Shown here one piece after another: positions 11,397-36,066 of a stretch of 39,765 nt of DNA (its first letter is position 1; each line of letters starts with the position of its first letter). A program made the translations under genes and the position numbers. The DNA comes from a virus. The DNA lies in IMG/VR virus record IMGVR_UViG_3300042505_000662, positions 1-39,765 of that record; one strand, 5' to 3'. The notes under the pieces were generated by a model that did not search any database, had not been told where the DNA came from, and worked only from the letters and a program-made list of their open reading frames with translations.

Positions 11397-13108
11397 TACC
11401 GCAGTCCGCTTGGCTTAGCCGTTACATCTACTGAGCGAATATACGACCAGCTGCTTCCTGCAGGGATTCTTGCCCGAACTGTATTATATCGAGCGTTTGC
11501 CCTAACCGCCGCATAACCCCTAACGCCAATCGACGACTCTGAACCTGTCGTTATGGTGTCAATTAGACGATCCCGCGATCTTACCGAAAACACCGCAGAG
11601 GATGAATCTCCAACAGGCGCGACGTTTTGCACAAATGTCCTAACGCCGTTTCCTATCGCGCCTTCTGGCGTATCAAGGATAGCCTCCAGATAAGGGCCAT
11701 TTAAATAACCCATTTGTCCAGCGCTTGAGACAACGCCTAACTGCTGCAGATAATTATAATCATAGTTATCCAGCGAGAAGGGCAGTCTATCCAAGCCATC
11801 TAATTGCTTAGCGGTATGCGTCCCTGATTGCGATCCGCTTGTGTTTATTGCTGAGCCGCCTTTTGTGGCTGATAGCTGGAAAGTATTAGTCGTGGCATTA
11901 ATAACATAATAAGTTGTTCCAGCCGTTAGCCCTGTTGGCAATGTGCCAGTTGTTGTAATTTGAACGCCATATCCGTTAGGAATGCCATGGGAAGCCCAAG
12001 TTACAACGCAAGGCGAAGCAATCGTTAAAGTTACAGTCGAGCTATTATAAACAAGACTATCTAACCCATCGAGGGTTGATGATAGCTGTAACATTGGCGT
12101 AGCGGCTATGGTGTTAATTTCACCATATGAAAACCGATCTAGTGACCAATCGTAAATCAAAACTTTGTTTAAAGTATTAGCTACCGCGCTTGAATAACTT
12201 TTATAAAACCACAAAACACGTGTATTGTTTGGATCTGTTGCTCCAACAATGTTTCTGTGATCCGTTGTATCTACATCAGCCAACATAGTTAGATTTATGC
12301 GATTAGCGCCAATAGGCGTAATCTGGCCTGATAAATCAATTTTATAAAAGCCATCCGTAGACATGAAAAACGTCATGCTGCCGCTTTTGCAAATTGAATA
12401 GCGCATCAAACAGCCTTTGTTGTCCGATATACGCTGAAACTCAAATATGTTTGGCGGGCCTGTATAGATCATTCGGCGAATAGCGCGCTCTTGGAATATA
12501 ATCCCAAATTCGCCACCAGATACGCCTTGAACAAAACCTCCGTCTGGGAACTCTTGATAATCAGACTGATTAGTTCCAGGCGTCCATGATGTTACATCAT
12601 TAAACCCTGACCAATGAACACGGTTAGGATTTGCCGTCAAAGATGATAAAACAACAAAGTCGCCAACAACAGCGCATCTTCTTGCTTGCGGAGGTGATCC
12701 GGTTAAATCAGCAAAATTGGATGAAGAACCAAGTGTGTAAAGTTGTGGATTATTGTTATTTGTAGTTGCAATCAGCTGGTTGCCAAATTGGCAAAAGTCC
12801 CACATCTCTCTTGCGGTCAAATTGTAATTACCGCCCGATGTTCTTGTCACATCATCCCATACGCGGGTTGTGCCATTTAGCTTGTATAACTTAGTGTCAT
12901 TACCGCCAAATATAGCAGATGAACCATCCGATTGAACCGTTCCAGTAACACCCCGGCAATAACCAGACATGGCCTCTGTAAAAGGCAAAACAGAACCAAG
13001 AGGCCCATAACCGTCAGGCAAAGGAACGACATTTTTAACATAGCTGGACTTTGCGGTTCCAACGCTATGAATATCTGGCTCATATGGCCCAAATGGAATT
13101 TCTGCCAT
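11396..13108 (-). CDS. Tail accessory protein, P22 gp10-like
   Basis: A 570-residue, beta-rich protein starting MAEIPFGPYEPDIHSVGTAKS. It has repeated blade-like strands with conserved Trp, Tyr and Gly spacing. Proteins of this class are the packaged-DNA stabilisation/tail hub proteins that plug the portal after the gp4-type adaptor. It sits immediately downstream of that adaptor, the same order as in P22. A short stretch around residues 355-440 (CVVTWASHGIPNGY) resembles a common phage Ig-like/beta insert and may be a later addition. Confidence 0.7.
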   Translation of the reverse strand: MAEIPFGPYEPDIHSVGTAKSSYVKNVVPLPDGYGPLGSVLPFTEAMSGYCRGVTGTVQSDGSSAIFGGNDTKLYKLNGTTRVWDDVTRTSGGNYNLTAREMWDFCQFGNQLIATTNNNNPQLYTLGSSSNFADLTGSPPQARRCAVVGDFVVLSSLTANPNRVHWSGFNDVTSWTPGTNQSDYQEFPDGGFVQGVSGGEFGIIFQERAIRRMIYTGPPNIFEFQRISDNKGCLMRYSICKSGSMTFFMSTDGFYKIDLSGQITPIGANRINLTMLADVDTTDHRNIVGATDPNNTRVLWFYKSYSSAVANTLNKVLIYDWSLDRFSYGEINTIAATPMLQLSSTLDGLDSLVYNSSTVTLTIASPCVVTWASHGIPNGYGVQITTTGTLPTGLTAGTTYYVINATTNTFQLSATKGGSAINTSGSQSGTHTAKQLDGLDRLPFSLDNYDYNYLQQLGVVSSAGQMGYLNGPYLEAILDTPEGAIGNGVRTFVQNVAPVGDSSSAVFSVRSRDRLIDTITTGSESSIGVRGYAAVRANARYNTVRARIPAGSSWSYIRSVDVTAKPSGLR

Positions 13109-25338: not shown

Positions 25339-25700
25339 TATTCGTCAGGCAACCAGCTTACTTCCAGCTTAACAGGCTGACCATTCTCGCCAGTATGCTC
25401 TAGCTTGGTTGAGTCTTTCCAACCCAATCGCGTTTTAGTCCAAAAGATTGCCGCAGGGATAGAACGCGGGTCATCTTTGGTAGCTTGCCTAAATAAGTTT
25501 CCAGCTACCTTGGCGTTAGCCTTAACCTCAGCTGTGTCTAATTCTTCCCTAAAGTGCTTGCGCAATGTAACGTCGCTAATACCCATGACTTGAGATATTT
25601 GCAGCTGAGTTATGCCCACACTGGCCATAGCCTCAACCATTTTGCGCTGCTCTTCAGTTGGCACATATGCAGGGCGACCACCTAAATTTGGCTCGCTCAT
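25338..25700 (-). CDS. terS: Terminase small subunit
   Basis: This gene encodes 120 residues. The N-terminal HTH (GITQLQISQVMGISDVTLRKHF) would bind the packaging site, with a helical middle and a tail (LEVSWLPDE) that probably contacts TerL. It lies directly upstream of TerL, overlapping the methyltransferase gene by four bases (ATGA). Confidence 0.85.
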   Translation of the reverse strand: MSEPNLGGRPAYVPTEEQRKMVEAMASVGITQLQISQVMGISDVTLRKHFREELDTAEVKANAKVAGNLFRQATKDDPRSIPAAIFWTKTRLGWKDSTKLEHTGENGQPVKLEVSWLPDE

Positions 25701-26950
25701 TTTTGTCGCTCTGACCTTAACTCGTTAAATGCTTGGCCTGTTGACTCTAATGTTGCTTCTTGGCCGGTGAAATTCTGCCAGCGCTCAATAGCCACATCAA
25801 CATAAGCCGGATTCAATTCAATGGCATGGCAACAGCGACCCGTCATTTCAGCTGCTATAATCGTTGTGCCGGATCCACTAAATGGCTCATATACAGCCTG
25901 ACCAGGACTGCTATTGTTTTCTATAGGGCGCTTCATGCATTCGACGGGCTTTTGTGTTGAATGGCCCGTTTCAGACTTTTGCGGCTTGTCTATCTGCCAA
26001 AGCGTTGATTGCTTGCGGCCACCGTCATAGTGGCCCGCCTTGCCCTTGCGAACGGCATACCAACATTCTTCTTCTTGAGAATGGTAATCACCGCGTCCAA
26101 TAGCAAAATGGCTTTTAGCCCAGACGATTAAACATCTACGCTCTAAACCAACAGCCTCTAACGAAAGAATACTTTCCGGGACAAATTTGCCGCTAGTCCA
26201 AACGTAGGCAACGTCGCCGGGAAACAATGCCCAGGCTTCTCGCCAGTCGGCTTTGTCGTCGTTTTTAACTACGCCAGTTGCTCGACCACCAGCTTTGCCG
26301 CCAAGAGCCTTGTCGCGCCATTCAGCGTCGTATTCGACCCCATAAGGCGGGTCAGTCACCATCAAATGCGGCTTAACGCCATTTAGCGCCTTATCTACCG
26401 ATTCAACAGTGGTGCAATCACCGCAAACAAGCCTGTGCTTGCCTAATATCCATACATCGCCCAAAGCGCTAATTGGATCAGCTGGCGGCTCTGGAACCTC
26501 ATCAGGATTCGTAAGCCCATCCGTTTTATCAGCCAAGATCGTCGCTAATTCATCAAGGCCAAAGCCCGTTAGGTCTAAGTTAAAATCAAGCTCTTTTAAG
26601 CCCTCTAACTCAATCCGTAATAGCTCGTTATCCCAACCTGCATTCATAGCCAGCTTATTGTCAGCCAGCACATAAGCGCGCTTTTGAGCCTCAGACCAAC
26701 CACCCGCAACCATTACGGGAATGTCTTTAAGACCTAGCTTCTTAGCCGCCATTACACGGCCATGACCCGCAATTAACCCGCCTTCCTCATCAACCAAGAC
26801 AGGAACAGTCCAACCCCATTCACGGATTGAAGATGCTATTTGATCTACTTGGTCAGGAGAATGAGTGCGGGCATTTCTTGCATAAGGAATTAACGAAGCA
26901 ATACTGCGCCGCTCAACCTTATCTGCGGGCCATTCACTTTTTATAGACAA
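25697..26950 (-). CDS. ParB-like/DNA methyltransferase fusion
   Basis: The TTG start at 26950 is supported by AGGTGG upstream. Residues 1-145 form a ParB/Srx-like nuclease-fold domain (LIPYARNARTHS; GLIAGHGRVMAAKKLG with GHGR at 62-65). Residues 165-417 form a beta-class amino-methyltransferase: DPPYG (200-204, motif IV) before FSGSGTT (357-363, SAM-binding motif I). DPPY favours N6-adenine, though N4-cytosine is not excluded. Such fusions are common beside terminase genes. It may protect phage DNA from host restriction or mark DNA for packaging. No cognate restriction enzyme is seen. Confidence 0.88.
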   Translation of the reverse strand: MSIKSEWPADKVERRSIASLIPYARNARTHSPDQVDQIASSIREWGWTVPVLVDEEGGLIAGHGRVMAAKKLGLKDIPVMVAGGWSEAQKRAYVLADNKLAMNAGWDNELLRIELEGLKELDFNLDLTGFGLDELATILADKTDGLTNPDEVPEPPADPISALGDVWILGKHRLVCGDCTTVESVDKALNGVKPHLMVTDPPYGVEYDAEWRDKALGGKAGGRATGVVKNDDKADWREAWALFPGDVAYVWTSGKFVPESILSLEAVGLERRCLIVWAKSHFAIGRGDYHSQEEECWYAVRKGKAGHYDGGRKQSTLWQIDKPQKSETGHSTQKPVECMKRPIENNSSPGQAVYEPFSGSGTTIIAAEMTGRCCHAIELNPAYVDVAIERWQNFTGQEATLESTGQAFNELRSERQK

Positions 26951-26980: not shown

Positions 26981-26989
26981 TGTGGATAA
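26981..26989 (-). promoter_or_regulatory. Perfect DnaA box
   Basis: TTATCCACA on the minus strand, the consensus DnaA box, between the methyltransferase and the small basic gene. The phage also encodes a protein with a DnaA DNA-binding domain (31072-31629). One box alone is weak evidence for an origin; it could be a site for host DnaA or for the phage protein. Confidence 0.45.
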
Positions 26990-26990
26990 G

Positions 26991-27170
26991 TTAGCAACCC
27001 TTTTGAGGTTTAATCGGAGCCATACGTGTTTTAGAACGTGTGTCGCCCTTTTTCATTGCGCCAGAAACTTTAGGAGCGCCCATGCCGTTGTTCGTGCTTT
27101 TGCCACGACCCATGAACTCTTTGTTTGTGCCATTGCCTTTTGAAGATGGCTTACCGCGATCACCAGCCAT
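26991..27170 (-). CDS. Small basic protein, first gene of the late operon (59 aa)
   Basis: ATG at 27170 preceded by AGGAG (GATCAGGAGCTAATCAA region). The product is rich in Lys, Gly, Asn and Ser with repeating K-G-N-G and G-R-G-K motifs and no hydrophobic core, so it is likely disordered and nucleic-acid binding. It leads the late operon. Role unknown. Confidence 0.65.
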   Translation of the reverse strand: MAGDRGKPSSKGNGTNKEFMGRGKSTNNGMGAPKVSGAMKKGDTRSKTRMAPIKPQKGC

Positions 27171-27220
27171 TTGATTAGCTCCTGATTAGTTTAAGTGATT
27201 GATTGTGATTCAGAAAAGGA

Positions 27221-27285
27221 TTCGAGTAGCCACACAACTCTAGGGTCAGCAGGAGAGCCAAGGGGATAAGTCGGGGCCACTCGAA
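27221..27285 (-). other. 65-base inverted-repeat element before the late operon
   Basis: TTCGAGTAGCC (27221-27231) and GGCCACTCGAA (27275-27285) are 11-base arms with one mismatch that can form a G-U pair in RNA on one strand. The 43 bases between can fold further (CTCT with AGAG). It lies between the early terminator and the first late gene, where an antitermination site or structured late leader would be expected. A tRNA cloverleaf was looked for and not found. Confidence 0.5.
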
Positions 27286-27290
27286 ACAGC

Positions 27291-27325
27291 AAAACAAAAA
27301 AGCCCCAAGGCGTTAGCCAAGGAGC
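27291..27325 (-). terminator. Terminator of the leftward early operon
   Basis: On the minus strand a hairpin GCTCCTTGG-CTAACG-CCTTGGGGC (27325-27302; seven pairs including one G-U, two T-T mismatches) is followed directly by TTTTTTGTTTTG (27301-27290). It would end transcription of the replication genes before the late genes. Confidence 0.7.
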
Positions 27326-27446
27326 TTGTAAAGCAAGACGGATATCTCGCATATTAACTGATTTGCACGTTAAAATGCGCTATTTGCGCTACAATGTCAA
27401 GAAAAATAGACTTTACTTCTGTTTAAAAGGATGGCTGTGTGTGTGC

Positions 27447-27707
27447 ATGAAAACAATTTACGCACTCGCTTTCACACTTATTGCAACGCCAACATTAGCA
27501 GGAATTGACTGCACTACTGTTGGTCCTCAGACGCAATGTTTTGGTAACGGCTACAACTCAAACGAATATATTTCGATGATGCGGACGCCCGGCCAAACAG
27601 TTGTCATGAGCCAAGACCGCAACGGCAATAATGAAATATCAAATTTTAGAGATGTGAATAACTTAGACTCTAGCCCAGAGGTTTTACTATCTATCCCTGC
27701 CTATTGA
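27447..27707 (+). CDS. Exported small protein, probable moron (86 aa)
   Basis: Start ATG 27447 is chosen because the product then begins with a textbook signal peptide (MKTIYALAFTLIATPTLA, cleavage after residue 18). The mature part is about 68 residues, polar, Asn-rich, with Cys22 and Cys30 that could pair. It is the only plus-strand gene between the early and late leftward operons, with a possible -10 (TACAAT, 27390-27395) but no good -35. Gene type and place fit a lysogenic-conversion gene. Its end overlaps the next gene, on the other strand, by 7 bases. Confidence 0.65.
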   Translation: MKTIYALAFTLIATPTLAGIDCTTVGPQTQCFGNGYNSNEYISMMRTPGQTVVMSQDRNGNNEISNFRDVNNLDSSPEVLLSIPAY

Positions 27708-27865
27708 TCTTCGTCCTCTAGCCATTCGTTTCTAATATCAATAAAGCGCCATTTTTCGTCCTTCATGCGCCTAATCATATCAGCCGTAACAACGCACATT
27801 TCGGACTCGATATAATCCGCAATAGCCTTAAAGGCGGCTTGCCAACCTCTTTCATAATTGTCCAA
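27701..27865 (-). CDS. Small hypothetical protein (54 aa)
   Basis: A TTG at 27865 preceded by AAAGGCGG opens a 54-residue frame, acidic and helical (YERGWQAAFKAIADYIESEM; KDEKWRFIDIRNEWLEDED). Composition looks like real coding sequence, and it is the last gene before the early terminator. It converges on the exported protein gene. No family recognised. Confidence 0.55.
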   Translation of the reverse strand: MDNYERGWQAAFKAIADYIESEMCVVTADMIRRMKDEKWRFIDIRNEWLEDEDQ

Positions 27866-27917
27866 GTTTCACCGCCTTTACTTAAATAGATACAAGTAAC
27901 GCAAAAGCGTATTATGT

Positions 27918-28160
27918 TTACTTATACTCTCCCAATACCTTACGGATAGCTTCAGCAGCATCTCTGTATCGTTCCGTAAATCCCATTATATAAGCGTGTC
28001 GTAACGCTCCCTCTGCATCGTTCAGCGCCTCTTCTAGTTCAACAATCCGCTTTGCTTGCGCTTCAATAGCGTCGGCGGCTTGACCTACATGCGGGTCTAA
28101 TGATCCCGCCGCAGATATGCGTAGCCAAGAAACTAAGCTGGTAAATCGATTACTTTCCAT
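27918..28160 (-). CDS. Small hypothetical protein (80 aa)
   Basis: A helical protein with AADAIEAQAKRIVELEEALNDAEGALRHAY, a pattern common in small phage proteins of early operons, and a final helix AAEAIRKVLGEYK. It overlaps the 89-residue gene by 11 bases. Function unknown. Confidence 0.65.
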   Translation of the reverse strand: MESNRFTSLVSWLRISAAGSLDPHVGQAADAIEAQAKRIVELEEALNDAEGALRHAYIMGFTERYRDAAEAIRKVLGEYK

Positions 28161-28419
28161 CTTTATTATCCCTAATAGCTGCAGCTATAGCTTGACGGCG
28201 TTCTTTAAGGCGTTGCTTTTGAACAATGTAATGCGTCTCTATTGGCCATTGCTCAACAATCTTGGCGCATCTTTCCCGTTCCTGCAGTGTTACGGATTCA
28301 ATCAATCCATCAGCCTTAGCCGCAGCATTTAAGGCTGCGACAATATCGCCCTCACTAACTAAATCTGTTGTTGCATCCCAAGCCGCTTGGATTGCGTCCT
28401 CAGACCAAGTGAAAGGCAT
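28150..28419 (-). CDS. Small hypothetical protein (89 aa)
   Basis: A helical protein containing LQERERCAKIVEQWP, a motif found in many short phage early proteins, and a basic C-terminus. Coupled to both neighbours. No function can be assigned. Confidence 0.65.
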   Translation of the reverse strand: MPFTWSEDAIQAAWDATTDLVSEGDIVAALNAAAKADGLIESVTLQERERCAKIVEQWPIETHYIVQKQRLKERRQAIAAAIRDNKDGK

Positions 28420-28958
28420 TAGTCTACCCCTACCTTGGCTTCGCGGATTTTTACGTTTCGAGCATTCAAGCCGGTAGCTATTTTATCCAGCGCTTCAGAT
28501 CGCCTTTTACGAGTTGTTGATGCAGCCCATCCCCTTTGACGAAACGTTGCTTCAATCTTTCTGCCAGCGGCCTTAGCCGTAGCCCAAGCCATAACAACCC
28601 GACACATGCCCTCTTGGCCATGAAGGTAATGCAAAGGCCAATGTGCCGCCTCTTCCGCGCGTGAAAGCGTTTCTGAGTCATACAAGGGCCTAATACGCGA
28701 CCAGCTGTCCCATACATCTTGGCGCATATTGTCGCCGTCTTCGCCACGGCCAACAAAGTCAGTCCATTCGCGCAATATAGCGGGCCAGCCATTACTAGGG
28801 CTGCGTATTGGCGAATAGCTTGAAGCAATTACTTTGCAGCTTTCAACCAATCGACCAGCCACGATTTCGCGCGACCATTTTGTAGGTGCTTCTACCTGGA
28901 CAATCCCATTTAAGGGATGCCACATCGTGTCTGGCTCTAAGGTCATCAGCATTTGCAT
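28419..28958 (-). CDS. DUF6362-like protein, possible late regulator
   Basis: A 179-residue product from ATG 28958, chosen because the previous gene stops at 28961; the longer frame to 29021 lies inside that gene. The SNGWPAILREWTDF stretch, a central segment with ARG/Glu-rich helix, and a C-terminal HTH-like region (FRQRGWAASTTRKRRSEALDKIATGLN) resemble DUF6362 proteins, which often close the replication module of alphaproteobacterial phages just before the late operon. By position it could act on late transcription, as lambda Q does; this is inference. Confidence 0.6.
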   Translation of the reverse strand: MQMLMTLEPDTMWHPLNGIVQVEAPTKWSREIVAGRLVESCKVIASSYSPIRSPSNGWPAILREWTDFVGRGEDGDNMRQDVWDSWSRIRPLYDSETLSRAEEAAHWPLHYLHGQEGMCRVVMAWATAKAAGRKIEATFRQRGWAASTTRKRRSEALDKIATGLNARNVKIREAKVGVD

Positions 28959-28960
28959 CC

Positions 28961-29476
28961 CTATTCTGCGGCTTGCCTGGAAAAAACTGGATAATATGGG
29001 CGTCCGTTTTCGCGCTCCCATCTTTCAAGCCATGATGGCGGCTTAACTCTCTCACGAATAAAAAAATACGGATCGCGTGGCTTTTCACCTGGTTGCAATT
29101 TTCCATACTCAGGATCAAAATTTACGCCGCTTTTGAGTTCATCAAGCAACGCTTGAAATCGGATTTTCATTTCCTCGCGCTTGGCTTGCGGCATTTCGTA
29201 ACGAGGTAAACGAGGTATAGACTCATTTCGAAGCCGGACGCGCGTGGCTGCGTTATTTTGCGCAGAGGTATATACCTGGCCAGCACTAGGAATGAATGCG
29301 CTGTCCGTCCTTCCTAGCTCTATACAAGCGCGTTCTACATCCGATGCAGCACAAGGTTCCAAAGTTTCGCAATAAGCATGAACTTTCGCAGCCAGATCAC
29401 CCTCACCCAACGCCGACGAGGCGGGGAATTTCGTAAATAACCGAAGAAGCGCCGCTTGCTTGCGTTTCGTTTCCAT
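28961..29476 (-). CDS. Probable helicase-loader-like replication protein
   Basis: A 171-residue protein. The first part (KRKQAALLRLFTKFPASSALGEGDLAAKVHAYCETLEP) resembles the N-terminal helix bundle of phage P-like replication proteins and is followed by FIPSAGQVY. There is no ATPase motif. It is directly downstream of the O-like initiator and overlaps it by 74 bases, as lambda P follows O. It might recruit host DnaB helicase to the phage origin. Confidence 0.55.
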   Translation of the reverse strand: METKRKQAALLRLFTKFPASSALGEGDLAAKVHAYCETLEPCAASDVERACIELGRTDSAFIPSAGQVYTSAQNNAATRVRLRNESIPRLPRYEMPQAKREEMKIRFQALLDELKSGVNFDPEYGKLQPGEKPRDPYFFIRERVKPPSWLERWERENGRPYYPVFSRQAAE

Positions 29477-30233
29477 GTGCGTTTTCCAAATTTAACAGGG
29501 CTTTCGTAATGGCTGACATTTTCTCCGTCTTGTTAGGCCCTGCCCTAGCTTCGGAGCGCATCCATTCGGCTTTGAATCCTGTCCAGCCGTTAGCCATCAT
29601 GGCTTGCGCGGCGGCTTCTGGATCGCCGTATTCGCGGAATTGTTTGACAAGCCCCTTTGCTGAGCCTGCGGTAAGGGGAGATTTTTTAGCTCTGCGATGA
29701 GCGATTAAATCGGCAGCGACTTCAGCTGAAAGGCATTCGGTTAAAATTGATAACGGCTTTTGTTGAGCACTATTATTTATAGATACGTTAGTATCTATAA
29801 TATCTTTATCTACTCTTATCTTATCTAGCGTTACAGTGCGTTTCACTGCGTTACATTGCGTTACATCATCATTAAGTCTTTGGTTTTTTTGTCTTTCTCT
29901 ATAAGCGCGAACGCGGTCATTTGAGGTGTCATCTTCGCGTTTTGGCTGCCTTTTTTCCCATGTAACAAACTTGTCCGTTACAGTGATGTTACGTGCGTTA
30001 CATTGCGTTACAATGCGTTTCAATTGCGTTTCATCACAATCTAAATACTCAGCAAGGACCTCCAAATCGACGCCAGCAAACGATCCGCGATCCTCAGATT
30101 GAGAGGCTCGATCCATCAGCGCCCATATAAAGGAAACAACCAAGCTGGTTGGCACCTCAGCCTTTTTAGCTATCAATCGCCATTTTGGATCAGTTGGGGC
30201 GCCATGCCATGATCGGAACCATTGATTGCTCAT
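29403..30233 (-). CDS. O-like replication initiator, origin within its gene
   Basis: A 276-residue protein. The N-terminal winged-helix domain (MSNQWFRSWHGAPTDPKWRL; residues 1-95) is of the phage replisome organiser kind. A charged linker holds two similar peptide stretches, VTQCNARNITVT and VTQCNAVKRTVT, encoded by the two iteron clusters. The C-terminal domain (about 155-276) would contact the loader. In lambda the O gene holds the origin iterons in the same way. It overlaps the Dcm gene by four bases. Confidence 0.75.
   Translation of the reverse strand: MSNQWFRSWHGAPTDPKWRLIAKKAEVPTSLVVSFIWALMDRASQSEDRGSFAGVDLEVLAEYLDCDETQLKRIVTQCNARNITVTDKFVTWEKRQPKREDDTSNDRVRAYRERQKNQRLNDDVTQCNAVKRTVTLDKIRVDKDIIDTNVSINNSAQQKPLSILTECLSAEVAADLIAHRRAKKSPLTAGSAKGLVKQFREYGDPEAAAQAMMANGWTGFKAEWMRSEARAGPNKTEKMSAITKALLNLENAHGNETQASGASSVIYEIPRLVGVG
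29770..29827. other. AT-rich tract of the putative origin, with perfect inverted repeat
   Basis: An AT-rich run directly next to the first iteron cluster. It contains a perfect 9-bp inverted repeat, TATAGATAC (29778-29786) and GTATCTATA (29791-29799) with a 4-base centre, and several TTATC words. A likely DNA unwinding element. Its place within a coding region is compatible with a lambda-type origin. Confidence 0.55.
29828..29867 (+). repeat. Iteron cluster 1 (four 10-bp units)
   Basis: GCGTTACAGT, GCGTTTCACT, GCGTTACATT and GCGTTACATC start at 29828, 29838, 29848 and 29858, an exact 10-base period that puts each site on the same DNA face. These are probable binding sites for the O-like initiator. 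The period is not a multiple of three, so it is not a simple codon repeat. Confidence 0.7.
29975..30035 (+). repeat. Iteron cluster 2 (four clear and two degenerate units)
   Basis: GCGTTACATT, GCGTTACAAT and GCGTTTCAAT, then GCGTTTCATC, start at 29995, 30005, 30015 and 30026; weaker copies begin at 29975 (CCGTTACAGT) and 29986 (ATGTTACGT). The same word as in cluster 1, about 110 bases apart, in the same orientation. Together they form the probable replication origin. Confidence 0.68.
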
Positions 30234-31072
30234 GCGGCCTCTCTTGCCGCAATAGCGCGGCCTATTAATTCTGGAATTTGTGGAACAACTGCATTGCCTA
30301 GAGCTTTAAGTCTGTGTGTCCTAGCGGGAACCCCATTAGCCACTCGACCCACATCGGGTTCAACTGCCCAGGTGTCGCGTCCAACATTCCGCAAGTCGCC
30401 ATATCGTGCAATTCTATAGTCCAGCCTTGCTCCTGCTTCCTCTTGATGCGTTTGCTTTCTATTTTGCATCCATGCCGAGCCATTGCAGCAGTAGGCGTCG
30501 GAAACATTTTTACAGCTGTCGCTAAACCATCTCCGCTTGTTTTTGACAGCCCCTTCCTGTTGTAATTCCCATTGACTGTCGGGGTAGGCCACAATCCAGA
30601 CTCTATCTCTGCGGTGAGGGGCGCCAATGGCTGAAGCTGGTATGCAATGCCATTCAGCATCATACCCGAACGAGGCCAACGTTCCGAGAACTTGGTCAAG
30701 CCCTCTACTAAGCAATGCTGAGACGTTCTCCACGATGACGTATCGTGGTCGAAACTCGCCAATAATTCTGGCGTATTCAAACCATAAGCCACTGCGCTCG
30801 CCTTCAATCCCTGCGCGTTTTCCTGCACAACTGATGTCTTGACATGGGAAGCCTCCGCAAATCGCATCAACGGTAATTCCATCTGCGGTAAGTCGCTCTG
30901 CGGTGATTGTTCTAACGTCATCGTAGATAGGCACCTGGGGCCAGTGTTTAGCTAAAACTTTTTGGCAATAAGGCTCAATCTCGCAAAACGCTACGGTCTT
31001 GAATGCGCCGCTACGCTCAAGACCGAGCGAAAAACCGCCAATGCCACTGAATAAATCCAAGAGGCGCAACAT
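30230..31072 (-). CDS. C5-cytosine DNA methyltransferase
   Basis: A 280-residue protein from ATG 31072 (TAATG overlap with the DnaA-like gene). The SAM motif LDLFSGIGGFSLGL (5-18), catalytic PCQ (76-78, in CGGFPCQDIS), ENV (115-117), APHRRDRVW (151-159) and the C-terminal motif RLKALGNAVVPQ (254-265) are all intact. The target-recognition part is short (about 165-250). It probably protects phage DNA from restriction. A second reading frame covers most of this gene (see 30298-30921). Confidence 0.92.
   Translation of the reverse strand: MLRLLDLFSGIGGFSLGLERSGAFKTVAFCEIEPYCQKVLAKHWPQVPIYDDVRTITAERLTADGITVDAICGGFPCQDISCAGKRAGIEGERSGLWFEYARIIGEFRPRYVIVENVSALLSRGLDQVLGTLASFGYDAEWHCIPASAIGAPHRRDRVWIVAYPDSQWELQQEGAVKNKRRWFSDSCKNVSDAYCCNGSAWMQNRKQTHQEEAGARLDYRIARYGDLRNVGRDTWAVEPDVGRVANGVPARTHRLKALGNAVVPQIPELIGRAIAAREAA
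30298..30921 (-). CDS. Protein-like reading frame embedded in the methyltransferase gene (207 aa)
   Basis: A stop-free frame of 207 codons, shifted from the Dcm frame and wholly inside it. The translation looks like a real protein: TSSWRTSQHCLVEGL, WPRSGMMLNGIAYQL, GLWPTPTVNGNYNRKG, SKTSGDGLATAVK and LNPMWVEWLMGFPLG. I recall these motifs from phage proteins encoded next to, or fused with, cytosine methyltransferases. No ribosome site is evident; ATGs at 30921, 30882 or 30867 are possible starts, with 30867 closest to the start of the motif-bearing part. Function unknown. Alternatives are a frameshift fusion with Dcm, or a relic of a former separate gene. Confidence 0.5.
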   Translation of the reverse strand: MTLEQSPQSDLPQMELPLMRFAEASHVKTSVVQENAQGLKASAVAYGLNTPELLASFDHDTSSWRTSQHCLVEGLTKFSERWPRSGMMLNGIAYQLQPLAPLTAEIESGLWPTPTVNGNYNRKGLSKTSGDGLATAVKMFPTPTAAMARHGCKIESKRIKRKQEQGWTIELHDMATCGMLDATPGQLNPMWVEWLMGFPLGHTDLKL

Positions 31073-31629
31073 TAAGCGCCCCAATAACGATGAGCGAGGC
31101 TTTCAACTGTAAGAGCCCGCTGCATTTGATTAACTTTGAGATGGAAAGCTGTGTCGGCGCGCATCATCTTTTGAATCTTTTTGACGCCGTGAAGGATTGT
31201 GGTGTGATCCCGCTTGCCGATTGCCAGCCCTATTTCAGGCAATGACTTAAGGCTGCATTGACGGGATAAATAGAAGATAACGTGGCGAGGCTCGGTTAGA
31301 TCCTTAGTGCGCCTGCCTGATAATAAATCTATCCGGCTGATGCCGTAGATTTGAGAAACGTAAGAAACGATCTCATTGATTTTAGGAAGGCGCGTTTCGC
31401 CCTCATAGGTTTTAAATAGTTCTTCTGGCGTCTGATTAGCCGGAAATGAAATAACATTATAATAAGGGTCTAATTGTATAATATCTCTTGGTTTTTGTTT
31501 TTGTTTTTTTACTTTTACTTTCCTGACTTTTGGCGACGGTAAAGAAACAACATTGGGTCGGTTTACTAAACCCATACGCGCCCGGACAGCTTTGTAATGC
31601 TCAACTAACTCAAACGCATGCATATTCAT
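31072..31629 (-). CDS. DnaA C-terminal domain (domain IV) protein
   Basis: A 185-residue protein. Residues 95-185 match the DnaA domain IV helix bundle, with the signature GKRDHTTILHGVKKI that reads the DnaA box. The AAA+ ATPase domain of DnaA is absent. The N-terminal half is basic (VRKVKVKKQKQKPRD). It may bind DnaA boxes to compete with host DnaA or to mark an origin. It begins by ATGA overlap and is followed by Dcm. Confidence 0.85.
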   Translation of the reverse strand: MNMHAFELVEHYKAVRARMGLVNRPNVVSLPSPKVRKVKVKKQKQKPRDIIQLDPYYNVISFPANQTPEELFKTYEGETRLPKINEIVSYVSQIYGISRIDLLSGRRTKDLTEPRHVIFYLSRQCSLKSLPEIGLAIGKRDHTTILHGVKKIQKMMRADTAFHLKVNQMQRALTVESLAHRYWGA

Positions 31630-31964
31630 TTCAACACCTCAGTTACTTTAAATCCATAAGTAAGCTCAGCCGCCTTCTTGCGAAGCCGATAAGCAGCGTC
31701 CTTTGCAGTCCCTGTAGATTTCACGTCCTCAACGATTTGAACGCGCTTGTGATCAATCCAATAAGAAAAGTCCGCAGTGTAAGTGCAAAACAACTTTCCT
31801 TGGATGAATGTTTTAAAAGCAGGCTGTAATTGTAAGTCGTAAATATCCCCGGCGCGCTCCAGCATCTTGAGATCAAGGTAGCGCTTCATCTCTTTTTTGC
31901 TGGCGAACAAAATGCCATCAGCAGTTCGCTCACTCGCCGGAGAAACTTTGAATCGGGCGATCAA
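31626..31964 (-). CDS. DUF1064-like phage nuclease (Holliday-junction-resolvase-like)
   Basis: A 112-residue protein with FASKKEMKRYLDLKMLERAGDI, then LQPAF, YTADFSYW and VEDVKSTGT. The E...D-F...E-D-x-K pattern is the PD-(D/E)xK nuclease core seen in DUF1064. Family members are thought to resolve phage DNA junctions. Full length. Confidence 0.8.
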   Translation of the reverse strand: MIARFKVSPASERTADGILFASKKEMKRYLDLKMLERAGDIYDLQLQPAFKTFIQGKLFCTYTADFSYWIDHKRVQIVEDVKSTGTAKDAAYRLRKKAAELTYGFKVTEVLK

Positions 31965-31976
31965 TCACGCCCCCCA

Positions 31977-32300
31977 TCAATCTTTCTCACCAGCCAAAGC
32001 ATCAGCCGCGCTAACGAGATTCTTACCAACCCAGGATTTTGCTTCTGTGATTGCCTTTTCATGGCGCAGGGAATTGATACCCTTGTCGATTTCACTTTGA
32101 TAAGCCCTCTCTAATTTCTCATAGACAGAGACGAACAAATCTTGCGGTGGGCGATAAAGAAGTCCCCATAAAGTCCCGTATGGGACACCATGCCTTCTAC
32201 TCAACCGACGCATCGCATTTACTCTGTCGCCTGGTCCCGTAGACTCACGATTGACCATCAACTTCACCCATCTCTGGGCGTCCTCAACTGCTTTACTCAT
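31977..32300 (-). CDS. Phage early protein, unknown (107 aa)
   Basis: Start ATG 32300 has GGAG at the right distance; the upstream extension to 32405 would read through the terminator region. The stretch TGPGDRVNAMRRLSRRHGVPYGTLWGLLYRPP looks like an HTH and recurs in alphaproteobacterial phage proteins as I recall. Possibly DNA binding. It is the first gene after the terminator at 32438-32465. Confidence 0.7.
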   Translation of the reverse strand: MSKAVEDAQRWVKLMVNRESTGPGDRVNAMRRLSRRHGVPYGTLWGLLYRPPQDLFVSVYEKLERAYQSEIDKGINSLRHEKAITEAKSWVGKNLVSAADALAGEKD

Positions 32301-32437
32301 TACAGACTCCAGCAAGTTCTTTTTGTTTTTGGAGCAAACGGTTTCATGCTTTTGTAGGAGCATGAAAACTTGCCCTTCACATTTTCCATTCGTGACGCTT
32401 GGCAATGCCGCCGCCCGATTGGTTGAAACAAAACTCC

Positions 32438-32465
32438 AAAAAAATGCAGGGACCGAAGCCCCCGC
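32438..32465 (-). terminator. Strong rho-independent terminator within the leftward early operon
   Basis: On the minus strand GCGGGGGC-TTCG-GTCCCTGC forms an 8-bp stem (two G-U) with a stable UUCG loop, followed by A and seven T. It lies 60 bases downstream of the second early gene and about 140 bases upstream of the next one. A terminator here implies read-through control, as for lambda tR1. Confidence 0.82.
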
Positions 32466-32484
32466 AAAGTTTGGGAGGAAAGCA

Positions 32485-32503
32485 CCCGCACTTGCCTTGC
32501 GGG
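32485..32503 (-). promoter_or_regulatory. Hairpin just upstream of the early terminator
   Basis: CCCGCA and TGCGGG form a 6-bp stem with a 7-base loop, and a further short palindrome CAGGCGAGCCTG lies at 32505-32516. Position between an early gene and a terminator is that of a nut/boxB-type antitermination site. No clear boxA is seen. Confidence 0.4.
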
Positions 32504-32527
32504 ACAGGCTCGCCTGGGGGGCGAAAC

Positions 32528-32740
32528 TCAGTGTTTCAGACGACGCAACATCTCAATCGAAGCAGCCTGATAATCAGAGGCTTCAATTTCGGAGAGCGTA
32601 TATTCGGATGTTTGAATGGCTGCGGCGGCGTAAGCCGCGAAACGGTCAGAGCGAATGTTGAGGTCATTAACAGCGCGCAATGCAATCGCCATGAGCTCAG
32701 ATAGAGTTAAAGGATGCTCTGATTGTTGCGCACAAGTCAT
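32528..32740 (-). CDS. Small early protein (70 aa)
   Basis: A soluble helical acidic protein (LTLSELMAIALRAVNDLNIR; AYAAAAIQTSEYTLSEIEASDY), second gene of the leftward transcript, coupled to cro by ATGA. By position it could be an antiterminator or a replication-control protein, but nothing in its sequence proves it. Confidence 0.6.
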   Translation of the reverse strand: MTCAQQSEHPLTLSELMAIALRAVNDLNIRSDRFAAYAAAAIQTSEYTLSEIEASDYQAASIEMLRRLKH

Positions 32741-32949
32741 GCCGCATCCTCATTTTCTGGATGAGGATAAATATCTGGACGAATTTCGTGTCTTGGTATG
32801 TTAAAAACGCGCTCAATTTCTAAAACGCGCTCTACAGGTATTTTCTGACGAAACCCCCAAGAATAAACGGTTGGCAAAGGCAGATTTAGGACCTCTGCCA
32901 TTTTGCGCGCGCCGCCAGCTTGATTAATGATTTGAGAAACTGATTTCAT
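32737..32949 (-). CDS. Cro-like repressor (YdaS-type HTH)
   Basis: This gene encodes 70 residues with an HTH (GGARKMAEVLNLPLPTVYSWG) and ending in a polar tail. The pattern (SQIINQAGGARKMAEVL) is the YdaS/Cro family, DNA-binding proteins at the lysis-lysogeny switch. It is divergent from the CI-type gene and shares the operator region 32957-32999. The -10 lies only six bases from its ATG, so its mRNA may lack a leader. Confidence 0.75.
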   Translation of the reverse strand: MKSVSQIINQAGGARKMAEVLNLPLPTVYSWGFRQKIPVERVLEIERVFNIPRHEIRPDIYPHPENEDAA

Positions 32950-32955
32950 ACCGCA

Positions 32956-32984
32956 ATCTATGCATATTGCAGAGATAATGTCAA
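32956..32984 (-). promoter_or_regulatory. Promoter of the leftward early operon (Pcro)
   Basis: On the minus strand, -35 TTGACA (32984-32979) and -10 ATAGAT (32961-32956) are 17 bases apart, with a TG one base before the -10. The operator 32957-32975 overlaps the -10 and 32981-32999 overlaps the -35, so repressor binding would block it. Confidence 0.72.
32957..32975. promoter_or_regulatory. Operator copy 1 (cro side)
   Basis: TCTATGCATATTGCAGAGA fits the partial palindrome TCTnTGCAnnnTGCAnAGA. It overlaps the -10 of Pcro. Copies of the same element occur at 32981, 33777 and 33811. Confidence 0.68.
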
Positions 32985-32999
32985 TGCGACTTGCATAGA
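32981..32999. promoter_or_regulatory. Operator copy 2 (cro side)
   Basis: TCAATGCGACTTGCATAGA fits the same palindromic pattern with two deviations (A for T at position 3, G for A at position 8). Its centre lies 24 bases from copy 1, a spacing that allows cooperative binding of repressor dimers. It overlaps the -35 of Pcro. Confidence 0.65.
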
Positions 33000-33012
33000 T
33001 AATTTATGCTTA

Positions 33013-34875: not shown

Positions 34876-35449
34876 GCAACTAGATAAGAGAATAAACGAT
34901 ATTCTTGCAAAGTATCACGACAATCCACGCGCAGCCCTTTGGGATTGCCATGGCACTTGGGTAATTTATCACAAAGACGTTGAGCTTATGGCTGCACGTG
35001 CTGGCATTAAGTTTGATGCGCCAACTATTATTGAAAATAACAGCGCCAGCAAAACCGTAGCTATATGCGTTACCGGCGCATTAGGCGATCATTTAGAATG
35101 GTCTATTGGCGAAGCTGCGCCCGGCAATAATAAAAATAGCTACCCATACGCAATGGCTGAAAAGCGCGCCAAGGATCGCGTAGCTTTGAAGCTGCTTGGC
35201 CTACATGGCTTTATTTATTCAGAAGATGAAATGAATGAAACGCCACCACCAAGGGAAAGTGATATTCAAAGTGTAGAACTTAAGATGCTCTTAGAAGCAT
35301 TAAACTTTGCATCTACGCCTAAAGAACTACAGGATTTCAAGAACAAGAATCTGGAAATTATTGACGATCTTTCCATTGAAGAAGGAAAGAGATTTGTCAA
35401 AGCCTACAACGATCATCGCGCTTCATTAAACAAAAAGGAAGCTGCGTAA
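34868..35449 (+). CDS. Probable single-strand annealing protein (Rad52/ERF-like)
   Basis: A 193-residue protein. The core TWVIYHKDVELMAARAGIKFD, then VTGALGD and YPYAMAEKRAKDRVALKLLGLHG, has the shape of Rad52/ERF-type annealing proteins, and proteins with the last motif sit next to YqaJ exonucleases in alphaproteobacterial phages. It directly precedes the exonuclease gene (shared base 35449), the usual order of a Red-like recombination pair. The C-terminal 60 residues are helical and acidic, a possible partner-binding tail. Confidence 0.65.
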   Translation: MAKQLDKRINDILAKYHDNPRAALWDCHGTWVIYHKDVELMAARAGIKFDAPTIIENNSASKTVAICVTGALGDHLEWSIGEAAPGNNKNSYPYAMAEKRAKDRVALKLLGLHGFIYSEDEMNETPPPRESDIQSVELKMLLEALNFASTPKELQDFKNKNLEIIDDLSIEEGKRFVKAYNDHRASLNKKEAA

Positions 35450-36066
35450 TGATTGAGATCATTAACTGCGAACAAGGAACGCCTGAGTGGCTTACCCATC
35501 GGGCAGGAATCCCAACAGCAAGCGAGTTTAAAACCCTACTGATGAAGGGCAAAGGCGGCGCAGAAAGTGAAACGCGCAAGTCTATGGTCTATACAAAAGC
35601 CTATGAGCTTTATTCTGGTAAATTTTCAGAAAGCTACACAAACGCCGATATGCAGCGCGGGCATGAAATGGAGCCTGACGCTCGTAATATGTATGCGTTT
35701 AGATACGACGCCGATCCAATAATAGTTGGATTTGTAAAGAATGGCCGTAAAGGCGCAAGCCCAGACGCCCTTCTTAGTAATGATGGCATTTTAGAAATTA
35801 AATCACATAAGCCATCGGTTCTTATCCCAATCATTCAAGCTGATGTGTTTCCTGCTCAGCATATGCCGCAATGCCAAGGGCTTTTGTGGGTATGCGAACG
35901 CGAATGGTTAGACATTGCTTGCTATTGGCCGGGCTTACCATTGTTCGTCAAACGCATAACGCGAGACGAGGCTTTCATTAGCAATTTGTCTGGTGAAGTA
36001 GACCGATTCAATGATGAAGTAGATGCGTTAGTTGAAAACCTTAAGAGCTACAGCGAGGCAGCATGA
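35449..36066 (+). CDS. YqaJ/lambda-exonuclease-type recombination nuclease
   Basis: A 205-residue protein with the YqaJ fold: GTPEWLTHRAGIPTASEF (10-27), GHEMEP (71-76), catalytic Asp106 (SPDALL), and E-I-K (Glu116, Lys118 in GILEIKSH). It resects double-stranded DNA ends so that the annealing protein can join homologous strands. Full length. It overlaps the next gene by ATGA. Confidence 0.9.
   Translation: MIEIINCEQGTPEWLTHRAGIPTASEFKTLLMKGKGGAESETRKSMVYTKAYELYSGKFSESYTNADMQRGHEMEPDARNMYAFRYDADPIIVGFVKNGRKGASPDALLSNDGILEIKSHKPSVLIPIIQADVFPAQHMPQCQGLLWVCEREWLDIACYWPGLPLFVKRITRDEAFISNLSGEVDRFNDEVDALVENLKSYSEAA

Follow-up and report, generated by a model that had tools for sequence, protein, structure and literature searches.

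Can a phage gene for a replication initiator also carry, within its own codons, the origin at which its product acts? This question is raised by two clusters of short repeats (arrays A and B) in one gene of an IMG/VR virus record, whose 39,765 bases were analysed as a single stretch (the window). A reading of the sequence alone had interpreted the clusters as the 10-bp iterons of a lambda-style replication origin inside an O-like gene. The same array layout was found in many related phages, so the answer may help to locate replication starts beyond this record.

The gene encodes a predicted O-like initiator

The features of the gene and of its modelled product are as follows.

29403-30233, minus strand: putative O-like replication initiator gene, an ORF of 276 aa in the 39,765-base IMG/VR virus record
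29940-30233, minus strand: codons of the N-terminal winged-helix domain (residues 1-98), from the AlphaFold model
29760-29864, minus strand: codons of the linker (residues 124-158), from the AlphaFold model; contains array A and the AT/purine tract
29463-29756, minus strand: codons of the helical C-terminal part (residues 160-257), from the AlphaFold model; confident to about residue 220

The best PHROG match of the protein was 21423, a family whose function is not known (2e-18), followed by 3729 'replication initiation protein' (3e-15), 678 'replication initiation O-like' (2e-12, spanning residues 104-236) and 6451 'primosomal protein' (6e-7). Pfam gave no match at E<=0.1. Phage_rep_org_N (PF09681) weakly matched 2 of 10 N-domains of the family at E<=0.5 (best E 0.003) and did not match the window protein. 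A tblastn search with the protein matched 32 phage records, all below 60% identity, some of them labelled replication protein O or primosomal protein I and the rest hypothetical; hits H10 and H24 were annotated as N-terminal phage replisome organiser.

The AlphaFold model, built from an 80-row alignment, was confident for the winged helix, with 10-residue blocks from 11 to 90 at pLDDT 94-98. A helix at 101-123 leads into the linker, where neither helix nor strand was modelled and pLDDT fell below 50 at residues 134-156. Among structural look-alikes, CRP-type winged helices scored best (Z up to 7.9). The winged helix also resembled 4pt7, 5kbj, 4pta and 4pql at Z 5.2-5.4, PDB entries whose titles read initiator, MDR initiator, Rep-DNA complex and DNA binding protein and which we take to be plasmid-type initiators; these middling Z values point to a common fold and no more. 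In the VIA-align structure list used here, the absence of an entry carries no evidential weight. Foldseek found no match to the model at E<=0.001, and a profile of the N-domain gave a single, chance-level match (E 0.54) among the sequences of solved structures. By its profile matches and structure model, the product is predicted to be an O-like initiator in which a disordered linker joins a winged helix to a helical C-terminal part.

Two arrays repeat with a 10-bp period

29828-29865, minus strand: array A, four TGTAACGC-type units at an exact 10-bp period, codons 123-136
29975-30033, minus strand: array B, six TGTAACGC-type units, two of them weak, in winged-helix codons (residues 67-87)

Both arrays have TGTAACGC(AA) as their repeat unit on the coding strand. 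Read on the plus strand, array A consists of GCGTTACA-type units starting at 29828, 29838, 29848 and 29858, the second being GCGTTTCA. The units of array B start at 29975, 29985 (weak), 29995, 30005, 30015 and 30026, with spacings of 10, 10, 10, 10 and 11 bp, which bears out the earlier description of four clear and two weak units. No inverted repeats were found among the array units.

Both clusters lie where the sequence-only reading had placed them, and they are the two strongest segments of this kind in the window: the top 10-bp self-matches were 29806-29866 (score 23) and 29994-30024 (score 17), against a maximum of 14 in 60 first-order Markov simulations at window length. The third-best segment, 139-162, scored 12 and holds about two copies of GTGTCGCAAA. 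Sites within one mismatch of TGTAACGC numbered 54 in the window versus 30.6 +/- 5.7 after shuffling, and none of 100 shuffles reached 54.

As had also been noted, the translation contains nearly identical peptides, VTQCNARNITVT and VTQCNAVKRTVT, at the two arrays. The period itself could be separated from the protein by shuffling synonymous codons. The lag-10 score of the gene was 23, compared with a mean of 7.5 in 200 such shuffles (p = 0.005, the floor of the test).

The period is conserved at the DNA level in relatives

Relatives were sought in bacterial genomes, IMG/VR contigs and phage records; the query was an alignment of the N-domain without the linker, except for eight phage loci found by the whole protein. 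We took 127 loci: 38 of the 40 in one set (L057 and L058 were excluded as short matches), the best 80 of 559, 8 of 13 fetched phage loci, and the window. The 13 fetched records came from the 32 phage records matched by tblastn. We excluded L001 and L002 for sharing contigs with L074 and L117, and L006, L007, L009, L012 and L015 as near-copies or fragments. Merging loci identical over the first 170 residues left 113, and 105 remained after removal of those with no W..RQ landmark (L083, L086, L090, L093) or with too short an ORF (L035, L053, L054, L100). The null for all lag scores was obtained by shuffling synonymous codons within each gene, which keeps the protein exactly.

Across the 105 loci, the linker lag-10 score averaged 15.3 versus 5.9 in the shuffled genes, with p<=0.05 in 86 loci and p<=0.01 in 63 (repeating the test with 200 shuffles gave 87 and 65, respectively). 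In the N-domain, the final 195 nt reached p<=0.05 in 36/105 loci, and the 195 nt beyond the linker, starting 75 codons past the W..RQ landmark, in only 6/101. The test was also run on 27 representatives, clustered at 60% N-domain identity to reduce the effect of relatedness; lag 10 gave p<=0.05 in 23 of these clusters and p<=0.01 in 19. At the latter threshold, lag 20 was detected in 14 clusters and every other lag from 7 to 24 in at most 2.

Lambda O served as a positive control. The test picked lags 20, 23 and 24, with no signal at lag 10; these are the annotated spacings of the lambda iterons, so the lag test does detect a known origin. An array by our motif definition was absent in 13/105 relatives, some of which show variant repeats (e.g., L098 and L108). 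The 10-bp period is thus conserved at the DNA level among relatives, which are not independent of one another.

Some relatives carry a second array in the codons of the N-domain

Chains of at least three units were found in the N-domain codons of 34/105 loci, whereas the synonymous null gave 2.0 (maximum 5). A linker chain was also present in 33 of these 34 loci, and the core class of the two arrays agreed in 33/33. Since array and domain lie in one gene, this agreement partly reflects common descent. Class C loci are largely confined to two groups of the tree, along which the motif labels are clustered (28 changes versus 59.9 shuffled). Within class A, dinucleotide agreement between the arrays (7/11) was within the range of shuffling (218 of 2000).

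The position of the second array varied, from codons 22-29 in L081 and 27-34 in L048 to 42-53 in many class C loci and 63-77 in L111, L126 and the window. The two arrays were 117-297 bp apart in 33 loci. Helical phasing between arrays A and B was considered and set aside as weak, with a vector strength of 0.33-0.40 over these loci.

The repeats run through all three reading frames

Because 10 is not a multiple of 3, adding or removing a single unit changes the reading frame. GTCACG-type units were distributed across the three frames as 35/33/35. The core letters of a unit are set by its definition, so only the non-core letters are informative. The T preceding CACG was retained in 102/103 units. 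In NAACG units, T was absent in 60/60 cases where NAA is a codon and present in 24/78 and 29/71 in the other two frames; it is never used in the NAA-codon frame because TAA is a stop. Accordingly placed in array A itself is one unit that reads TGAAACGC, in the frame where TGTAACGC would give a TAA stop. The repeats are independent of the reading frame and run through all three.

This behaviour bears on two explanations that do not involve a DNA site. The first is selection on the linker peptide, with its VTQCNA-type repeats and DTDTDK tails, rather than on DNA. Near-identical peptides from both arrays, of a type common to the relatives, are what it would predict. The DNA period, however, exceeds that of shuffles preserving the protein exactly, the same DNA unit gives different peptides in three frames, and the linker is modelled without structure; we regard peptide selection as highly improbable.

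The second is slippage: the tandem copies would be neutral duplications in a linker free of constraint. The linker is indeed variable and unstructured, short repeats do arise in this way, and the multiples of three (lags 12, 15, 18 and 21) were somewhat above the shuffles, although far less so than lag 10. Neutral events that stay in frame should favour multiples of 3, whereas the strongest linker lags were 10 and 20, then 5, 6 and 12. A single 10-bp unit would break the frame, and second arrays of the same core class lie in the codons of a folded domain. Slippage therefore has very little probability in our estimate. Both the peptide-level and the slippage readings were judged unlikely after the synonymous shuffles.

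A repeat tract is locked in register to the array

29777-29827, minus strand: AT/purine tract (AGATAAGATAAGAGTAGATAAAGATA... on the coding strand), a candidate unwinding element adjoining array A
29777-29800, no strand: perfect inverted repeat with arms 29777-29786 and 29791-29800, 10 bp and 100% complementary, and a 4-nt loop

The sequence-only reading had placed an AT-rich tract with a perfect inverted repeat next to the iterons. Both exist, the arms being 10 bp long. The tract that follows array A runs to codon 153, and its first AGAT lies 6 nt past the start of the last AACG core. An AT-rich tract beside the iterons is a property shared with lambda: AT content was 81% in the 36 nt after array A versus 54% gene-wide, a value within the synonymous-shuffle range when this single gene is taken alone (p = 0.09). 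The inverted repeat did not hold up as a family feature, since only 2/92 loci, the window included, have a perfect one of at least 9 bp within 70 nt past the array. We rejected the hairpin as a conserved part of the origin, and the repeat at 29777-29800 is probably incidental.

Tract counts were restricted to the 92 of 105 loci that have an array by the motif definition. At least three AGA[TG] occurred within 45 nt downstream of the last unit in 84/92 loci and upstream of the first unit in 6/92. Tract AT content in the family was 0.62 versus 0.50 under the synonymous null, with p<=0.05 in 68/92 loci and not in the other 24/92. In some loci (e.g., L046 and L121) the tract is GA-rich instead of AT-rich, so AT-richness alone is perhaps not the whole point.

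The distance from the last paired core to the first AGA[TG] was 5-8 nt in 54 loci, 16-17 in 22, 26-27 in 8 and 36 in 1, such that the tract started at 5-8 nt modulo 10 in 85/89 loci; in 3/92 loci no AGA[TG] was found within 60 nt. Steps between successive AGA[TG] were mostly 6 nt (153) or 5 nt (103). The O proteins of lambda and Stx phages are described as binding their AT-rich region in single-stranded form (PMC7466680); it is therefore plausible that the tract, too, acts as a single strand.

DnaA-type boxes and neighbouring genes

26981-26989, minus strand: DnaA box TTATCCACA, pattern match
27653-27661, minus strand: DnaA box TTATTCACA, pattern match
11625-11633, strand not given: DnaA-type box TTTTGCACA, pattern match

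The DnaA box that had been pointed out near 26985 is present, as the first site above. Both it and the box at 27653-27661 sit in a stretch without minus-strand ORFs of at least 80 aa. These boxes bear on the possibility that the arrays are operators, through which the O-like protein or another regulator controls its own operon, and that the origin lies elsewhere. Repeat clusters inside an early gene could regulate that gene, two of the boxes lie at 26981 and 27653, and the phage encodes a DnaA domain-IV protein. The arrays, however, are found far into the gene, not at its start, and keep a fixed register with the downstream AGATA/AGAGR tract. Three DnaA-type sites in 39.8 kb are also near the single match of a reversed control pattern, and on this count we rejected the boxes as the origin. 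Taken together, the operator explanation appears unlikely.

Several neighbouring genes may be recorded here. The DnaA domain IV (PF08299, E 1e-21) forms the C-terminus of a 185-aa protein encoded at 31072-31629 on the minus strand, two genes upstream of the O-like gene; its match to the DnaA model (5e-26) was below that model's cut-off. In locus L013 of a Manatee Spring phage, a gene annotated dnaA immediately precedes the O-like gene. Directly upstream of the initiator gene in the window, with a 4-bp overlap, lies a C5-cytosine methyltransferase gene (30230-31084, minus strand). In a DNA search of 27000-33000 against phages, the 10 of 24 matches listed fell at about 30.3-30.9 kb, in this methyltransferase gene and not in the initiator. 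A fusion of a ParB-like protein and an N6-N4 DNA methyltransferase is encoded at 25697-26950 (minus strand), and the product of 35449-36066 (plus strand) weakly matches the lambda-exonuclease family (TIGR03033, 31.6 bits, below the 68-bit cut-off).

The next gene and exchange of modules

28961-29476, minus strand: next gene, 171 aa, candidate helicase loader or partner as judged from the gene context in relatives

Pfam, PHROG and NCBIfam assigned no function to the 171-aa product, a search of the phage collection at E<=0.1 gave no match, and its structure model was poor (mean pLDDT 50). Relatives of the gene, 60% (L141) and 42% (L143) identical, directly follow initiator-like genes with other N-domains. 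In L141, the C-terminal part of the initiator is 51% identical and the next gene is retained, whereas the N-domain and the linker repeats differ: the linker carries other repeats followed by a ATACCAGATACC tract. The L141 protein matches replication initiation O-like (1e-17), and its N-domain matches a replisome organizer profile (5e-4); L142 yields the same match. PLE satellites, in which the DNA-binding domain is reported to be exchanged together with the origin, resemble the L141 case (PMC8263062).

The initiator-like gene preceding the relative in L143 matches other replication initiation profiles (4e-34), and its N-domain showed no clear match to the window protein. Its linker region (about 2575-2656) contains an 11-bp repeat, CACTCGTCGAA, followed by a tract of GGAAG repeats, which suggests that helical-turn spacing may extend beyond the initiator family of the window. 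With only two cases, L141 and L143, the apparent swaps of modules are a hint and not a test.

An intragenic origin as the preferred interpretation

The repeats are most likely the landing site of the protein encoded by the same gene. We consider it very probable, from the sequence comparisons and the structure model, that the arrays are iterons for this O-like protein and that array A together with the AT/purine tract forms the phage replication origin. What supports this reading is the combination of the initiator-family matches, the position in the linker, the conservation of the period at the DNA level, the second arrays of the same class and the register-locked tract. The proposal of a lambda-style origin in an O-like gene therefore stands as the best-supported one, except that the units are 10-bp direct repeats without dyad and that the hairpin is not a feature of the family. 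Phage genomes do contain sites that serve other processes, for example packaging, recombination or antitermination. The arrays, in contrast, lie within the initiator gene across relatives from bacterial genomes, phages and IMG/VR, in a layout that appears lambda/SPP1-like, and a role in such a process seems most improbable.

For the intragenic origin, the following course of events can be proposed. Leftward transcription of the early operon would yield the initiator, whose winged helices would sit side by side on array A. With about one unit per helical turn, the proteins would lie on one face of the DNA. The initiator may also bind array B, somewhat more than 100 bp away. The row of proteins would then strain or load the tract of 5-6-nt AGATA/AGAGR repeats so that the strands open, and the C-terminal part, together with the product of the next gene, would recruit a DnaB-type helicase. 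How strands are opened is still an open question according to the title of a review (PMC5043065), and the register between repeats and tract provides a specific geometric hypothesis of how a phage initiator might open an origin.

If the reading is true, one gene carries two codes, and silent changes should stop replication while leaving the protein unchanged. Sequence would then directly reveal the origins of many phages and prophages that encode an initiator of this type, many of them known only from metagenomes. More tentatively, and as a possibility that we hold at somewhat below an even chance, a large group of initiators from phages and prophages, mostly of Proteobacteria and including at least one cyanophage, may share an undescribed grammar of intragenic origins. 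Its elements would be head-to-tail sites of one helical turn, coding in three frames and an AGATA/AGAGR tract joined in register, with a one-faced row of winged helices handing a single strand to the initiator. The layout of a DnaA box with a DnaA-trio provides the comparison for arrays and tract, and such a grammar would be closer to it than to the dimer-bound palindromes of lambda.

Comparison with known systems

TP901-1 rep, taken as a comparison for the phage replisome organisers (PF09681), showed only a 15-bp lag (p 0.015) in our test. The ydaU gene of the E. coli Rac prophage (L140, 5120-5977, DUF1376) gave no lag-10 signal; it contains a 23-bp lag around TGTTCAAACA/TGTTTGAACA and a GATAAAGATACAG/GATAAAGATACAGATAAAGAT tract, which could possibly represent an intragenic origin of this cryptic prophage. 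The iterons of PLE RepA_N differ from the window units in being semi-palindromic repeats of about 30 bp in an origin described as intergenic (PMC8263062). The origin described in PMC6092414 is alike in having two iteron sets in one origin; there, the AT-rich region has a set on either side and the origin comes after the initiator gene, whereas the window has both arrays within the gene and the tract after the second. Francisella phage KIRK has predicted repeats inside its replication gene, which adjoins a gene matching Inhibitor_G39P; this is a single prediction, likened to lambda, and the accessible part of the report describes no 10-bp grammar (PMC7924643). A literature search over titles and the beginnings of abstracts, with most subscription journals outside its range, found no description of 10-bp intragenic iterons in this O-like initiator family.

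SPP1 oriL lies inside the initiator gene 38 and comprises initiator-bound direct repeats and an AT-rich unwinding element, with a helicase loader taking part (PMC6316719). Compared by description, oriL (gp38, gp39, gp40) and the window are alike in that the initiator gene itself contains direct repeats and an AT-rich element. SPP1 differs in possessing another origin, oriR, some 13 kb from oriL (PMC6316719).

The lambda origin is described as lying inside gene O, with iterons in mid-O that add residues to the protein and are followed by an AT-rich tract (PMC7466680, PMC5043065). Lambda and Stx-phage origins are thus like the present locus in having the origin inside the initiator gene and iterons before an AT-rich tract (PMC7466680, PMC5043065). 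The placement of array A and the tract in linker codons, between the DNA-binding and C-terminal domains, follows the lambda-type layout, to which array B is an addition; second arrays in the codons of the DNA-binding domain, seen in 34/105 loci, set the family apart from lambda. Lambda iterons are described as imperfect inverted repeats of 18-19 bp (annotated as 18 bp), bound by an O dimer and starting 20-24 bp apart, whereas the window units are 10-bp head-to-tail direct repeats of about one helical turn with no dyad. As the units fall outside the lambda definition of 18-19 bp palindromes at 20-24 bp, we count this putative origin as a variant among intragenic phage origins.
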